Of a DNA stretch of 30,199 nt, positions 4,338 to 26,173 are shown piece after piece (within the stretch, counting starts at the first letter, position 1; each line of letters starts with the position of its first letter). Source of the stretch: Planctomycetota bacterium (GTDB lineage Bacteria > Planctomycetota > Phycisphaerae > FEN-1346). A model generated the notes under the pieces. It was not told the DNA's origin, did not search any database, and saw only the letters and a program-made list of their open reading frames with translations. Location: positions 1 through 30,199 of the forward strand of contig JAPLMO010000483.1 of assembly GCA_026386995.1 (NCBI GenBank). The letters are read 5' to 3'. The position numbers and the translations under genes were made by a program.

Positions 4338-4415
4338 GCTGCACCCCGCGTGCGCCGGAAGGGCGATGTCCTATCTTAAGGCGCCGCTGGGCCGGCAGCA
4401 AGACGGGCGGTTAAC

Positions 4416-4576
4416 TACTGCAGTGCCACCGAATTGTCGCACATTATTGTATCGGGTGCCACGGTTGCGCCGTTCAGCAACCGTGCCGCCGTTCGACGAA
4501 GAGCACGGCTGCAAACAGCGCAGCCGTGGCACCCGGCGTGTTGGATAACGTGCAATCTGAGTGACCAACTACACTA
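4416..4576 (-). mobile_element. MITE-like element, copy C (diverged, reversed)
   Basis: This is a 161-bp non-coding element related to the copies at 24769-24930 and 25939-26100 but in the opposite orientation. The right end (cactacacta) matches the terminal repeat of the other copies exactly, and the left end (tactgcagtg) matches at 8 of 10 positions. The core is a long imperfect palindrome bounded by gggtgccacgg and ccgtggcaccc. The outer arms are reverse-complemented relative to the other copies, yet the central spacer (ccgccgttcgacg) keeps the same orientation. It occupies most of the 315-bp gap between two divergent genes, so it lies in their promoter region. Confidence 0.8.
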
Positions 4577-4578
4577 CC

Positions 4579-4602
4579 GCGGCGGGTCGGGAGACCCGCC
4601 GC
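4579..4602. repeat. GC-rich palindrome (GGCGGGTC family)
   Basis: A 24-bp near-perfect palindrome, gcggcgggtc followed by gggagacccgccgc, starts 2 bp after the MITE-like copy. The same motif occurs twice more at 21678-21765 upstream of the serS-like gene, so it is a dispersed repeat family. It could form a stable hairpin at the 3' side of the DRE-TIM gene. Confidence 0.75.
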
Positions 4603-4652
4603 GCAATCATGGCACTGTTGTTGTCCGGTTCCCCGTTCCCGGTTCCCGGCCG

Positions 4653-6160: not shown

Positions 6161-6250
6161 GGGTGGCATGCCCAGGCCGCCGTTGCCTGGGCATGGTCCA
6201 TGGCCGCGGCGACAGCATGCCCAGCGAACAGCGCGCTGGGCATGCCACCC
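6161..6250. repeat. Nested palindrome (GGGTGGCAT family)
   Basis: Perfect 15-bp outer arms, gggtggcatgcccag (6161-6175) and its complement (6236-6250), enclose two smaller hairpins, such as gcatgcccagg pairing with cctgggcatg. The repeat is the main content of the 347-bp gap between the divergent genes at 4653-6032 and 6380-7348. Nothing else is evident in that gap apart from the two ribosome binding sites. Related structures occur at 10297, 17459, 21267 and 26111. Confidence 0.8.
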
Positions 6251-9201: not shown

Positions 9202-9274
9202 AATCAGGGACAGCGCCAACCCCGCCCGGACCCCTGACCCCGCCTGGCGAGGCCGCTTGGCGCTGTCCCTGATT
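9202..9274. repeat. Inverted repeat with perfect 18-bp arms (agggacagcgcc type)
   Basis: The arm aatcagggacagcgccaa (9202-9219) is an exact reverse complement of 9257-9274, separated by a 37-bp C-rich spacer. No target-site duplication is obvious next to it. It would form a stable hairpin in RNA or a cruciform in DNA, and it may be a degenerate mobile unit. Confidence 0.75.
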
Positions 9275-10296: not shown

Positions 10297-10336
10297 GGGT
10301 GGCACGGCCACGCGCCGTTGCGTGACCGTGCCACCC
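10297..10336. repeat. Nested palindrome (GGGTGGCAC family)
   Basis: Outer arms gggtggcacgg (10297-10307) and ccgtgccaccc (10326-10336) enclose gccacgc/gcgtgac sequence. The hairpin lies between the ACT-domain gene and the mla promoter, where it could stop read-through transcription, although no U-tract follows. Confidence 0.7.
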
Positions 10337-14122: not shown

Positions 14123-14219
14123 GCTTCTTGCTTGGCAAACTTCTCTTGCCTGCGTCGCCTGTAAGTAATAGAATCTGCTTTGGGCAAGGCACGGCGGTTT
14201 TGCGGTGAGGGCTTTTCTC

Positions 14220-15236
14220 ATGAAGTCCCTTTCTACGGTCTTACCGGATACGGAATGCGACGCATTCACCAGGAACGACGTGTGCATATATTATGGGGAC
14301 GTCACCGAACTCTATGACGCCTGGGACCGGCCGGTGGCAATCATCTCTGATGGCCCTTACGGGGTGGCGGGTTTTCCCGGCGACCCTCCCCGTCCCGAGG
14401 GGCTGCCTGCCTGGTATGAGCCGCATATTCGCGCCTGGTCAAGGCGGGCCACGCCCCTAACTACCTTGTGGTTCTGGAACACGGAGGTTGGCTGGGCCAA
14501 TGTCCACCCCCTTTTGGTGAAGCTTGGCTGGACATACCGTTGCTGTCACGTCTGGGATAAGGGCATGGCCCATGCGGCGGGCAACAGCAACACAAAGAGC
14601 CTTCGCAAACTGCCTGTTGTCACAGAAGTCTGCGTTCAGTATGTCCGGGAAGCCGAGTTCGGCAAGAACGGGCGGCATGTGAGCATGCAGGAATGGCTGC
14701 GTACGGAATGGGAGAAGACGGGCCTGCCCTTCTCGGAAACGAACCAAGCCTGCCGCGTCCGTAATGCGGCCACGAGAAAGTATTTCACAAAGTGCCACCT
14801 CTGGTACTACCCTCCGATTGAAGCGTTTGAACAACTTGTTGCCTATGCGAACAAGTACGGCAGGCCCGAAGGACGACCCTACTTTTCCTTCGACGGCAAG
14901 AAGGTCCTCACGGCGAGGCAGTGGGCCAAGATGCGCGCCAAGTTCTATTGCGAGCCGGGCGTCACCAACGTGTGGTGCGAACCTGCCGTCAGGGGGGAAG
15001 AACGCCTGAAGAATGGCCTGAAGTGCATCCATACGAACCAGAAGCCGCTGCGGCTCATAGAACTAACGATTCGCCTCTCCTCGGACCCTGGCGATCTCGT
15101 GTGGGAGCCATTCGGGGGGCTGTGTTCCGCCGCAATTGCGGCTCACAGGTCAAAACGACGTTGCGTAAGCGCGGAGATTATCAAGGAGTTTTACGAAATC
15201 GCGGTCAAGCGGTTGGAGACATACGATGCCGTCTAA
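14220..15236 (+). CDS. Beta-class DNA N4/N6 methyltransferase of a restriction-modification pair
   Basis: The 338-residue enzyme would methylate an exocyclic amino group of A or C, using S-adenosylmethionine, to protect host DNA. The catalytic motif IV appears as DGPY at 44-47 (in place of DPPY). Motif X follows at about 271-278 (HTNQKPLR), and the SAM-binding motif I near the C-terminus is EPFGG at 296-300. The order IV, target region, X, I is that of the beta class. The central region with many aromatic residues is the likely target-recognition domain; the specificity is unknown. ATG at 14220 has GAGG 9 nt upstream; a GTG at 14205 is possible. Its stop overlaps the start of the nuclease gene by 11 bp. 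Codon use is less GC-biased than that of proC, which suggests transfer. Confidence 0.85.
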   Translation: MKSLSTVLPDTECDAFTRNDVCIYYGDVTELYDAWDRPVAIISDGPYGVAGFPGDPPRPEGLPAWYEPHIRAWSRRATPLTTLWFWNTEVGWANVHPLLVKLGWTYRCCHVWDKGMAHAAGNSNTKSLRKLPVVTEVCVQYVREAEFGKNGRHVSMQEWLRTEWEKTGLPFSETNQACRVRNAATRKYFTKCHLWYYPPIEAFEQLVAYANKYGRPEGRPYFSFDGKKVLTARQWAKMRAKFYCEPGVTNVWCEPAVRGEERLKNGLKCIHTNQKPLRLIELTIRLSSDPGDLVWEPFGGLCSAAIAAHRSKRRCVSAEIIKEFYEIAVKRLETYDAV

Positions 15237-16140
15237 GCCATCGCCGCCTGTAGAAGTTCAGCCTGATCCCAAGTGGCCGCATTATAAACTTTACACCCGC
15301 GTTCGCGACGCTGTTACGGCTCTCCCGCTGCACTTCAAGACCGAGACCGTTATAGCGGGGATAATGGCTACAGACCTCTTCACGCTGGCTGCCGCTCTGG
15401 GCGCCACAATCGAGCAACAGGTGGTTGATACCCTGAATGACATGCGGGAAGTGTGGGATCCCGAACACAAGTACGAACTGTACCACTTCTACCGGCAGTC
15501 TCAAACCTTTCCCGACGTGCTGCTAAGGAAGAGCGCAAATGCGGCCGACATAATCATGGGCCTTGAACTGAAAGGCTGGTATTTGCTGGCCAAAGAGAGC
15601 GAGCCGAGTTTCCGATTTCTGGTTACGCCGAAGGCGTGCAATCCTCAAGACCTCATTGTTGTGGTTCCTTGGGCGCTCTCCAACGTCATTTCGGGCACGC
15701 CCAGGGTTTTTGACCCCTACATGGTGTCTGCGCAGTTTGCAGCCAATTACCGCAACTATCATTGGCAACATCTTCGGGAGGCGAAGTCTGACCCTGCCAT
15801 AACGTCCCCAGCCAAGGTCGTCCCTTACCCCCAGAAGTCCGACGCGATAAGCGACAAGCCCAAGTCCGATGACGGAAAGAACTTCGGTCGGTTCTCCCGA
15901 ACAGGACTGATGGATGACTACCTGAAAGAGGTTGCCCTCCAACGCATTTGCGGCATTGAGGCAACCCATTGGAGAACGTTTTTCAAGGCTTTCCAAGAAC
16001 AGGCAACCCCGCAAAGCGTCCAGAAGGCAATTGAGAGATTCGTCGCCGACCTCAAGAAAGACTCCCGAGCCGCCGACCCAACGGTACTGGCCAGTGTACA
16101 GAAGATCATGGATGAACTGAAGAATCTTGTATCGGGCTGA
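15226..16140 (+). CDS. Putative PD-(D/E)xK restriction endonuclease
   Basis: The 304-residue protein is not one I can name, but it carries a convincing nuclease core: PD at 96-97, then E114-L-K116 on a predicted strand (GLELKGWYLL), giving PD-x16-ExK. The residues around it (Y, H, F before PD and WYLLAKE after ELK) fit the type II endonuclease fold. The gene overlaps the methyltransferase by 11 bp, the classic arrangement of a type II restriction-modification pair. The C-terminal 70 residues are helical and could bind DNA. Its lower GC content suggests it arrived with the methyltransferase. The cleavage site is unknown. Confidence 0.7.
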   Translation: MPSKPSPPVEVQPDPKWPHYKLYTRVRDAVTALPLHFKTETVIAGIMATDLFTLAAALGATIEQQVVDTLNDMREVWDPEHKYELYHFYRQSQTFPDVLLRKSANAADIIMGLELKGWYLLAKESEPSFRFLVTPKACNPQDLIVVVPWALSNVISGTPRVFDPYMVSAQFAANYRNYHWQHLREAKSDPAITSPAKVVPYPQKSDAISDKPKSDDGKNFGRFSRTGLMDDYLKEVALQRICGIEATHWRTFFKAFQEQATPQSVQKAIERFVADLKKDSRAADPTVLASVQKIMDELKNLVSG

Positions 16141-17372: not shown

Positions 17373-17458
17373 AGGGGAACCCTTTCCTTGGCTCCTACAA
17401 TACGGGCATGCAACAAAGGCGTCCTGCAAATGTCCGTGTCAATCGCCCCCCTGCGGAC

Positions 17459-17534
17459 GTGGCGCGGCTGGCTTGCCCAGCCGTGGGGAACGTCGCAGAC
17501 CCTCCGCCACGGCTGGGCAAGCCAGCCGTGCCAC
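17459..17534. repeat. Nested palindrome with 28-bp arms (GTGGC-CGGCTGG type)
   Basis: Positions 17459-17486 and 17507-17534 are reverse complements with a single mismatch. Each arm also contains its own hairpin (cggctggcttgcccagccg). It lies between the glycosyltransferase and GalT-like genes on the minus strand and could end or attenuate transcription between them. Confidence 0.8.
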
Positions 17535-17557
17535 AACCGCGATGGCGCACGTTGCGA

Positions 17558-21266: not shown

Positions 21267-21362
21267 GGGTGGCATGGCCACGCTGTTGCGTGGCCATGTG
21301 CCTCGAACGGCGCCTGGCCCGTCACTGCGACATGGTCACGCAACAGCGCGACCATGCCACCC
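21267..21362. repeat. Nested palindrome (GGGTGGCATGG family)
   Basis: Outer arms gggtggcatgg (21267-21277) and ccatgccaccc (21352-21362) enclose two smaller hairpins (catggccacg/cgtggccatg and a second gcgaccatg-type arm). It lies between the divergent hemC and the small gene at 21463, so upstream of both. Confidence 0.78.
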
Positions 21363-21663: not shown

Positions 21664-21677
21664 GCGCCCCGAAACGT

Positions 21678-21765
21678 GCGCGGTGGGTCTCCCGACCCGC
21701 CGCGATAAAGTGCGATGCAGCGCCTGTGCCCTGAGGCGCGCGGCGGGTCAGGAGACCCGCCGCGC
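21678..21765. repeat. Pair of GC-rich palindromes (GGCGGGTC family)
   Basis: Two related hairpins, 21678-21704 and 21738-21765, each read gcggyggg-t-c(t/a) with complementary ccc-gccgcg arms. They lie in the 118-bp gap ahead of the serS-like gene, ending 17 bp before its chosen start, so they may hide or replace a ribosome binding site. A third copy is at 4579-4602. Confidence 0.75.
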
Positions 21766-21781
21766 AATGCTGCGTGATTCC

Positions 21782-23242
21782 ATGCTCGACCTGGCGATGG
21801 TCCGAACCGAGCCCGAGCGCGTCATCGCGGCTCTGGCCCGCCGCGGCCTCGGCCCCGAGGCCGTCCGCGAGGTCGTCCAACTCGACGCCGAGTGGGCCGA
21901 CCGCGAAATCGTGCGCGAAACCCTCCGCCAGCGGCGCAGGCGCATCAGCGAAGAGGTCGCCCGCGCCAAAGCCGCGGGTGCCGCCGCGGCGGACCTCGAA
22001 ACCCTCGGCCGGCAGGTGGGCGACGAACTCGCCGCCATCGAGGCCGAGATGGCGGACCTCGATGCCCGCCGCCTGGCCGCCCTCGCGCCCCTGCCGAACC
22101 TTCCCGCCACCGACACGCCCGATGCGTTGGCCGAAGTTCAAGCCGGCGATGCACCGCAGTGGCCGAACCCTTTCGCCCCCCTTCACCACGCCGACCTTCT
22201 GGAGATGCTCGGCCTGGCCACCACGGCCGCGACGGCGGGGCACGGGTTTCTCGTCTGGCGCGGCCAGGGGGCGCGGCTGGTCCGGGCGCTGACGAACTTC
22301 ATACTCGACGTGCACACCCGCGAGTTCGGCTACGAAGAAGTGCGTGTCCCCGCGCCGGCGACCCGCTCCGCCCTCGGCGGCTCGGCCCACCTGCCGGCGC
22401 TCGAAGATAAGATGTACAGAGTCGCCACCGAGCACATCGGGCCAGCCGCTGCCGAGCCCGCGGCGGGAGCCGCGGGGTACTCCCAAACGGCGCAAGACCT
22501 GTTTCTCGCTCCCCGTGCCGAGCCGCACTTGGCGGGCCTTTTCACCGGCGAAATCCTTGAGGCGTCGCGGCTTCCGCTGCGACTAGCATCGGCCGGGCCG
22601 GCCTTTCGCCGCGAGGCGGGCGGCGGGGGCGCCGCCGGGCGGGGCCTCGCGCGACTGCACCAGTTCGATACGGTCGAACTTTACGTCTTTGCCGCACACG
22701 AGCAGGCCGAGGACGAACTCGCCCGCGCCGTGCGGGCCGCCGAAACGATCCTCGCGCGGCTGGAAGTGCCCCATCGCCGGCGTCTGCGCCCCGACCTCAG
22801 CCTCGCCGCCACCAAGACGGTCGACCTGGAGGTCTGGGCGCCGGGCATGCCCGCCGCAGGTGAAAAGGGGTCTGACCCCCTATCCGTTCAGGGGTCTGAC
22901 CCCTTTTCGCCTGAGCGCCGCTCAAACGAGCGAAGGGGTCAGGAGCCTGACGGATTAGGGCTCCAGACCCCTTCGTCGTCGCGCGGCCGGTGGCTTCCGG
23001 TCGCCGCCATCTCAACGTTCACCGACTACCAGGCCCGCCGCACCACCACGCGCTACCGCGACGCCGGCGGCCGCGTGCGGCTGGTCCACACACTCGGCGG
23101 CGCGGCCGTGGCCCTGCCGCACCTCGTGGCGGCTATTCTGGAGAACGGCCAGGAGGCCGACGGCACCGTGCGCCTGCCGGCGGCGCTGGCGCCGTACCTG
23201 GGGGACGCCGCGCTCTTGCACCTGAAGCATGGCGTTACTTGA
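21782..23242 (+). CDS. Seryl-tRNA synthetase-like protein with altered active site and inserted repeat
   Basis: The 486-residue product has the SerRS layout: an N-terminal coiled-coil arm (about residues 20-110, tRNA-binding type) and a class II catalytic core with HTREFGYEEV (motif 1 region), FRREAG...HQFDTVEL (motif 2) and AILENGQEADGTVR after motif 3. Several residues usual for serine activation are not seen: TxE is RAE, the EISSCSN-type block reads PVAAIST, and the motif 3 GR is LP. This is judged from memory of the family. Between WAPGMPAA and RWLPVAAIS, about 40 residues come from an inserted palindromic repeat (22861-22980). The ATG at 21782 gives the normal N-terminus MLDL; no good ribosome binding site is seen. 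It may be a non-canonical paralogue or a decaying copy. It overlaps the next gene by 8 bp. Confidence 0.8.
   Translation: MLDLAMVRTEPERVIAALARRGLGPEAVREVVQLDAEWADREIVRETLRQRRRRISEEVARAKAAGAAAADLETLGRQVGDELAAIEAEMADLDARRLAALAPLPNLPATDTPDALAEVQAGDAPQWPNPFAPLHHADLLEMLGLATTAATAGHGFLVWRGQGARLVRALTNFILDVHTREFGYEEVRVPAPATRSALGGSAHLPALEDKMYRVATEHIGPAAAEPAAGAAGYSQTAQDLFLAPRAEPHLAGLFTGEILEASRLPLRLASAGPAFRREAGGGGAAGRGLARLHQFDTVELYVFAAHEQAEDELARAVRAAETILARLEVPHRRRLRPDLSLAATKTVDLEVWAPGMPAAGEKGSDPLSVQGSDPFSPERRSNERRGQEPDGLGLQTPSSSRGRWLPVAAISTFTDYQARRTTTRYRDAGGRVRLVHTLGGAAVALPHLVAAILENGQEADGTVRLPAALAPYLGDAALLHLKHGVT
22864..22975. repeat. Palindromic repeat inserted in frame in the serS-like gene
   Basis: The segment holds aaaaggggtctgacccc (22864-22880) and its inverted copy ggggtctgacccctttt (22891-22907). 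A second hairpin follows, cgaaggggtcaggagcc (from about 22931) pairing with ggctccagaccccttcg (to 22975). It is about 120 bp long, keeps the reading frame and encodes a Gly/Ser/Pro/Arg-rich stretch absent from normal SerRS. Confidence 0.82.
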
Positions 23243-24653: not shown

Positions 24654-24768
24654 GTCGCACACCCCGTGATCGGAGCCCATTGTGCAGTCCGGATGTAAAG
24701 GCCAAGGACACACAAGTTATTATGCCGGGCACAGGCAATTCCGCAAGACACTTTTCACGGGCCCCTGC

Positions 24769-24930
24769 TAGTGTAGTGTTTCACTCAGATGATATCTTAT
24801 CCAGGGCGACCGGGTGCCACGGCTGCGCTGTTTGCAGCCGTGCCGCCGTTCGACGCAGAGCACGGCTGCAAACAGCGCGAGGCGTGGCACCCGATACCAT
24901 GATGTGCGATAATTCTGAAACACTACACTA
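24769..24930 (+). mobile_element. MITE-like element, copy A
   Basis: A 162-bp non-coding element bounded by ctagtgtagtgtttc at the left and its exact complement gaaacactacactag at the right (the outer c and g flank the TA-bounded element). The core is a long palindrome, gggtgccacggctgcgctg paired with cagcg..cgtggcaccc, with a short central spacer. Copy B, 1.17 kb away, is nearly identical (a few substitutions). The TA at both edges suggests TA-target insertion, as with IS630/Tc1-type transposases, but no transposase is present here. It fills most of the 296-bp gap upstream of the secreted-protein gene. Confidence 0.88.
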
Positions 24931-24949
24931 GCGTGAAGCCACGTTAAGC

Positions 24950-25870: not shown

Positions 25871-25938
25871 GCGGGAATTATAGCGACCCGGCGGCCCGGC
25901 GGTAGTGCGACCAGCGGTAACCCCTCAATCTGGCGCTC

Positions 25939-26100
25939 TAGTGTAGTGCTTCACTCAGATGATATCTTATCCAGGGCGACCGGGTGCCACGGCTGCGCTG
26001 TTTGCAGCCGTGCCGCCGTTCGACGCAGAGCACGGCTGCAAACAGCGCAGCCGTGGCACCCGATACCATGATGTGCGATAATTCTGAAACACTACACTAG
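25939..26100 (+). mobile_element. MITE-like element, copy B
   Basis: A 162-bp element in the same orientation as copy A (24769-24930) and nearly identical to it: start tagtgtagtgcttc, end gaaacactacacta, same palindromic core. It is the first item in the 604-bp gap 25871-26474 between the metallophosphoesterase and ileS. The rest of the gap holds a palindrome at 26111-26173, the ileS promoter at 26228 and a 21-codon leader frame at 26303. Confidence 0.88.
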
Positions 26101-26110
26101 TATTGTGGGA

Positions 26111-26173
26111 TGTGGCACGGGTGGGAAGCGCCGCGCGCCATCCGCCACGGCTGGACAAGCCAGCCGTGCCACA
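26111..26173. repeat. Palindrome (TGTGGCACGG family)
   Basis: Outer arms tgtggcacgg (26111-26120) and ccgtgccaca (26164-26173) enclose ccacggctgg and ccagccgtg-type inner arms. It abuts the MITE-like copy B, from which it is separated by 10 bp. Confidence 0.65.

Follow-up and report, generated by a model that had tools for sequence, protein, structure and literature searches.

Is a palindromic stretch of DNA inside a seryl-tRNA synthetase (SerRS)-like reading frame of an uncultured planctomycete a mobile repeat that entered the gene without breaking it, as an earlier note on this DNA had proposed, or an ordinary loop peculiar to one lineage? We addressed this question in the whole stretch of DNA that carries the gene, hereafter the window (30,199 nt, GC content 0.65), and in related proteins and genomes.

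Structure of the inserted segment

The segment, which encodes GEKGSDPLSVQGSDPFSP followed by ERRSNERRGQEPDGLGLQTPSS, is inserted between DLEVWAPGM and RWLPVAAIS, and the reading frame remains open through two stem-loops (Table 1), which bears out the reading of an in-frame palindromic repeat: stem-loop DNA lies within the ORF with the frame kept, as in protein-coding palindromic elements. A 17-base repeat, AAAAGGGGTCTGACCCC, occupies 22863-22879, and three related copies lie at 22867-22883 (minus strand), 22887-22903 and 22891-22907 (minus strand). With up to three mismatches allowed, these four copies were the only ones in the window and none lay outside the insert (mean of 100 shuffles, 0.10), while a far looser pattern gave a single match outside it, at 9228. 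DNA folding returned one hairpin each at 22861-22909 and 22930-22976, with near-identical plans (11 and 10 bp, respectively, a 1x1 mismatch, 6 and 7 bp, and a loop of 11 and 9 nt), the one mismatch of each stem occupying the corresponding place in both. None of 200 shuffles was as stable as either hairpin (z = -7.2 and -6.5), and the RNA hairpins inside the coding region reached -31.7 and -34.5 kcal/mol. A census of the window (arms of at least 11, at most one mismatch, gene limits set by us from the ORF lists) yielded 14 hairpins, whereas five first-order Markov simulations gave 0-2 each; of the 14, 10 were between genes, two in other genes (arms of 11 and 12) and two, with the arms given in Table 1, in the SerRS-like gene. 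The 54-bp first unit is open in three of its six frames in the window, and Rfam gave no match in the window at the gathering score.

An addition of about 40 residues between two blocks that are adjacent in normal SerRS, close to the active site, had been claimed. We counted 45 added residues, about 40 of which are covered by the two repeat units, and in two alignments of solved SerRS the flanking blocks are separated by 5 and 2 residues; judged by sequence, the insert would indeed lie close to the active site, immediately before motif 3. Where the window protein has its left-edge residues, the relative P0006, whose site is empty, reads GMKQWLAV. As a separate observation, a possible third palindrome of the ORF, CCCGCGGC GGGA GCCGCGGG, was noted by eye at 22457-22476; it encodes EPAAGAAG, and similar peptides occur in two different loops of other members of the SerRS-like family.

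Table 1. Positions of the SerRS-like gene, its inserted units and neighbouring features in the window
Feature	Position	Strand	Remark
CGGCGGGTC/GACCCGCCG palindrome pair	21677..21766	.	immediately 5' of SerRS-like start codon
SerRS-like ORF, 491 aa, host of the insertions	21767..23242	+	PF02403 N-terminal arm and PF00587 class II core matched
APRAEP	22508..22525	+	TxE motif position of canonical SerRS, reads RxE
GMPAA (360-364), left edge of expanded loop	22844..22858	+	just 5' of the repeat
First inserted unit, GEKGSDPLSVQGSDPFSP	22859..22912	+	54 bp, 18 codons
Hairpin 1, within first unit	22862-22908		census: arms 18, 1 mismatch, loop 11
Second inserted unit, ERRSNERRGQEPDGLGLQTPSS	22913..22978	+	about 66 bp
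Hairpin 2, within second unit	22931-22975		census: arms 17, 1 mismatch, loop 11
SRGR, right edge of expanded loop	22979..22990	+	then SerRS-like sequence again (WLPVAAIS)
GGAAVALPH	23096..23122	+	altered SerRS motif 3 (NGSGLA..R), Arg to His

The host gene and its variable loop

The description of the host gene as serS-like stood as far as the SerRS arm and core are concerned, but the gene is probably, on the evidence of its sequence, a second, divergent and non-canonical SerRS paralogue rather than the housekeeping serS. The window ORF scored 243.5 bits with TIGR00414 (serS), below the curated cut-off of 301.65, and family members without the window repeat likewise remained below it (246.4 and 260.3 bits). 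Among the four family-bearing genomes that were scored (G001, G002, G003 and G004; G007 was left out), a serS above the cut-off was present elsewhere in three (G001, G002 and G004, the G004 copy being partial), and G003 had only serS fragments below it; G005, which was also searched, contained a canonical serS alone. The canonical genes of G001 and G002 span 416 model positions in 1245 nt and therefore carry no such insert. The TxE motif, the NGSG of motif 3 and the motif-3 arginine, which we take to be active-site residues of SerRS, are all altered in the window protein. The changes to RxE and GGAA were found in 16 of 16 family rows compared to four canonical rows, and the arginine is replaced by histidine in 9 of the 16, the window among them, while R250, E252, G444, G445 and A446 were invariant across the 44 family rows chosen for an alignment with 67 invariant columns. 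Differences between the window gene and four relatives amounted to 0.23-0.29, 0.21-0.24 and 0.43-0.48 at codon positions 1, 2 and 3, respectively, which suggests continuing purifying selection on the gene. The nearest named relatives of the protein are Planctomycetota. Its probable status as a non-canonical paralogue would explain why inserts are tolerated.

To compare the loop among relatives, as the earlier note had advised, we used the best 120 of the 2378 homologues found; the loop alignments and the tree excluded 10 that did not exceed 400 aa, and the other 110 (>400 aa) comprised 92 members of the window's family and 18 canonical SerRS. The alignment revealed empty, half-filled and doubly filled sites. 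The loop segment measured 32 residues in all 18 canonical SerRS and in 66 of the 92 family rows, and 77 in the window, 82 in P0003, 55 in P0004, 60 in P0005 and 72 in P0008. For P0003-P0008, and for P0122-P0132 below, unit length and frame were read from the peptides. Both units are present in the window protein and in P0003 (79% identical to it, with a similar second unit), P0004 and P0005 have the first unit alone, and P0008 has a slightly changed first unit followed by another segment. Homologues with an empty site, as protein-coding palindromic elements have, include P0006, P0009, P0011 and most other family members.

At least eight extra residues occupied the loop in 24 of the 92 family members versus none of the 18 canonical SerRS, and the 24 filled rows fell into the classes GSDP (5), RGGS/PPR (4), DPRPS (2) and other (13). 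A quick tree from which the insert columns had been omitted, with gains and losses counted alike as changes, required 15 changes for the five insert classes and at least nine for empty versus filled, five of these nine being forced by starred branches. A starred six-row clade united four of the five GSDP rows with the two empty rows P0006 and P0009, with P0008 outside it. P0004 is the sister of the window protein on this tree yet lacks the second unit that P0003 carries, which implies more than one loss or gain of this unit. By sequence comparison, then, the loop before motif 3 is a recurrent insertion site. The translation of the palindrome pair just upstream of the start codon (RGGS..DPPR, by eye) resembles the inserts of P0063, P0067, P0076 and P0091 in this same loop.

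Other loops of the family vary too, many members having inserts of 8-80 aa. These follow window residues 72, 125, 134, 154, 225-227 and 431-438, and some have repeat-like wording (RGGSPHPPRD, SMPTEKTPWA, a tandem LTLGASNNLPD and RLRQGYGGQ).

The first-unit peptide and related palindromes elsewhere

When residues 362-410 were used as the sole query, P0003, P0004 and P0005 were recovered together with seven radical-SAM proteins (P0122-P0128, PF04055), all planctomycete and some annotated as heme b synthase or SPASM protein. The 18-mer GEKGSDPLSVQGSDPFSP is letter-identical in all seven, as it is in P0004 and P0005, and the identical stretch takes in the spacer LSVQ. The E-values of the radical-SAM matches were high (0.15-0.89) because the match is short, and the evidence therefore lies in the identity of the peptide. 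The same element thus occurs in unrelated genes, at the protein level. A mobile DNA unit best accounts for the presence of an identical peptide in folds that are unrelated to each other, and since the first-unit peptide recurs in a different fold, it represents a dispersed element rather than a lineage-specific loop. Among the best 120 of 7269 radical-SAM homologues, the loop from VTCAPH to GCLGG could be parsed in 66, and the element was present in nine of these, in P0132 at another point of the loop; the query represented one reading frame of the element, so the uniformity of frame in this set is biased. A degenerate form in P0137 was not counted among the nine, nor was P0146, a tenth match to the GSDP label that we regarded as due to chance. 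Apart from the degenerate form, the remaining parsed homologues lack the element, among them P0130, P0133, P0142 and P0153.

At the DNA level, one of the 61 relatives of G004 contained AAGGGGTCWGACCCC and 60 did not, and in a phylum sample of 392 genomes seven contained AAGGGGTCTGACCCC and 385 did not, so the first unit is rare; G201, a genome of 1.8 Mb, held 60 matches to AAGGGGTCTGACCCC. The arm motif of hairpin 2, AAGGGGTCWGGMKCC, gave five matches in 3 of 41 relatives, and the reversed control also gave five; single matches are therefore meaningless and only a paired copy in G004 counts. This copy (G004:C152:9238-9277) is a stem-loop of the hairpin-2 type 5' of a probable start codon, with a frame open through it. 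In the viral_contigs set, the 17-base repeat occurred in six stretches on four contigs and the hairpin-2 form on one contig (L200), with no match to the full first hairpin. The ORF adjoining the repeat on L141 was considered as a transposase and rejected by eye, two weak Rhodospirillum matches from a plasmid search (E = 0.03) were dropped, and a phage search gave no match.

Each of the three Y1_Tnp genes found in G201 (L165, L168 and L171) is flanked on either side, at distances of up to about 1.8 kb, by palindromes of the form GGGGTCAGACCCC or GGGGACAGTCCCC, which suggests a RAYT-like mover. These palindromes are built differently from the window repeat in being single and often perfect. A fixed motif gave nothing at 27 of 32 Y1_Tnp loci and was found on both sides at the three G201 loci only; none was present at 12 Y1_Tnp loci of G001-G008. 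A looser motif placed palindromes on both sides of L173 (G249) and on one side of L128 (G007), and the inverted repeats listed around 10 of another 12 Y1_Tnp regions included no GGGGTC palindrome. Separately, a TAAGGGGTCAGACCCCTTA palindrome at about 1500-1520 of L123 (G044) reads, by eye, through one minus-strand frame and is perhaps an in-frame insertion.

Origin of the insert and comparison with known elements

In our view the segment is probably a mobile palindrome, REP-like or MITE-like, whose in-frame insertion was tolerated by the loop just ahead of motif 3 in this divergent SerRS paralogue. What is observed is the stem-loops, the empty, single and double states, the 18-residue peptide in an unrelated family, and the open frame. 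The element may have moved as single-stranded hairpin DNA, mobilised in trans by a RAYT/IS200-type Y1 (HUH) transposase, with such palindromes landing in tolerant loops; entry would probably have been stepwise, in two steps, unless the second unit was lost later in some relatives. The insertion presumably survives because 54 bp is a multiple of three with three of six frames open, and because the GSDP-rich peptide is hydrophilic and the loop under weak constraint. The inserted peptide most likely acts as a passive linker, not as a functional part that the protein has newly gained.

Other origins were weighed against this mobile-palindrome reading. An ordinary lineage-specific loop, in which a GC-rich disordered region grew by slippage and local duplication with the palindromes incidental, would fit the short extensions without recognisable repeat in P0010, P0053, P0065 and P0083, the length variation in several other loops of the family and the partial duplications seen as GEKGSGEKGSDPL in P0125 and P0127 and as GEKGPGEKGSDPL in P0005. 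It is largely refuted by the identical 18 residues, spacer included, in an unrelated fold, and two stem-loops of like plan with such z-scores also speak against it, leaving it very improbable. The earlier note had set this outcome, the same insertion in relatives with no repeat elsewhere, against its own proposal; what we found was empty or half-filled sites and the peptide in radical-SAM proteins. Identity of the unit between the two families, together with its rarity elsewhere, is what recombination or gene conversion between them, or an assembly chimera, would leave behind if the segment had been copied without transposition. Within the radical-SAM loop, however, the element sits at two different points (P0132 versus the rest), the carrier proteins come from several sources and contigs, and copies of the hairpin-2 type lie outside both genes, which makes this account very improbable as well.

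The remaining two accounts concern the gene and the hairpins themselves, and we hold both to be improbable. If the SerRS-like gene were a decaying pseudogene, it could tolerate anything, and the active-site changes (RxE and GGAAV in 16 of 16 rows, histidine for the motif-3 arginine in 9 of 16) and the inserts in several loops would follow; full-length open frames throughout the family, the 67 columns invariant over 44 rows and the excess of differences at third codon positions argue otherwise. The hairpins might instead be kept for a role, with the mRNA structure tuning translation or the encoded peptide segment taking part in binding, in line with the folding energies of the RNA hairpins in the coding region and with the retention of both units in P0003 at 79% identity, but P0004 does without the second unit, P0006 without either, and the sequence found at this site differs in other lineages. 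In favour of the mobile palindrome we rejected the growth of an ordinary loop, gene conversion without transposition, and decay of the gene as a mere pseudogene.

The likeness drawn earlier to the Rickettsia palindromic elements (RPEs), reportedly described by Ogata et al. in 2000 and 2002, proved apt for the in-frame insert, the empty sites and the same peptide in unrelated proteins. In the part of PMC10969869 on which we draw, RPEs are short palindromic repeats of about 150 bp that lie in frame within unrelated protein-coding genes and are translated as extra segments, and the contribution of such repeats to proteins is termed unexplored. The window repeat shares the in-frame coding palindrome, but its units of 54 and about 66 bp and its planctomycete host set it apart, so by size and host it is not an RPE proper. 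Intragenic REPs of the GTAG and CGTC superfamilies are described, in the portion of PMC3733652 used here, as lying wholly inside ORFs, often as dimers that contribute 20-30 residues to the protein, with cases among the tRNA synthetases of three species, and with different REPs at about one site in recB of two Xanthomonas species; REP families are reported there from Planctomycetes and Verrucomicrobia. Palindromes within ORFs are common to both systems, whereas one loop reused across a family, and a SerRS paralogue and a radical-SAM protein as targets, distinguish the present case from what that portion of PMC3733652 covers. Hairpin 1 has neither GTAG nor CGTC at its stem; the stem of hairpin 2 does overlap a CGTC at its 3' end, but the G004 copy lacks this tetranucleotide, which makes its standing as a tag ambiguous.

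Two inverted palindromic arms with a short loop also characterise REPIN/RAYT (Y1_Tnp) systems in the excerpts of PMC3116915 and PMC2817692, while the Y1_Tnp-flanking palindromes seen here, in G201, are of a related kind and in a genome other than the window's. Coding palindromes of Nematomorpha mitochondria, according to an excerpt of PMC6649704, are likewise translated inverted repeats inside protein-coding genes, but they are animal, mitochondrial and up to 284 bp. SLIMP, as the excerpts of PMC10570016 and PMC10817482 present it, resembles the window protein in being SerRS-like with changed active-site residues, but is an animal mitochondrial protein, whereas the window protein is bacterial and keeps the N-terminal arm. 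The repeat string was not found, in three forms, in the literature searched, and titles and abstract openings disclosed nothing beyond PMC3733652 on such insertions in Planctomycetota. In-frame intragenic REPs and RPEs are thus already known, and the parts of the literature consulted yielded no record of this repeat, these target genes or the repeated use of one loop.

Overall, the element has the look of a mobile repeat from which proteins acquire extra segments. One gene family displays empty, once-filled and twice-filled states and several kinds of insert at a single site, and together with a second family bearing the identical peptide, this makes the order of steps, the frame and the tolerance directly traceable. 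Much more tentatively, a general process in these planctomycetes is conceivable, though doubtful, in which several unrelated palindrome families, made coding-safe by their unit lengths and frames (the first unit measuring exactly 18 codons), repeatedly enter the same few loops of certain proteins and build protein segments stepwise; the SerRS paralogue and the radical-SAM protein would then be natural landing pads. A caution also follows for annotation, as a gene labelled 'serine--tRNA ligase' may be a paralogue in metagenome-assembled genomes of this kind.

The window contains further features. Other palindrome families, mostly intergenic, lie at 4414-4607, 6161-6250, 10297-10336 and 17453-17540, with more, again mostly intergenic, at 21267-21362, 24810-24931 and 25981-26173. 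The stretches 24768-24931 and 25938-26100 share near-identical copies of 111 nt and 52 nt. At 14205-16140, an N6/N4 DNA methylase gene (PF01555) is followed by an overlapping gene without a Pfam match, possibly its restriction partner.
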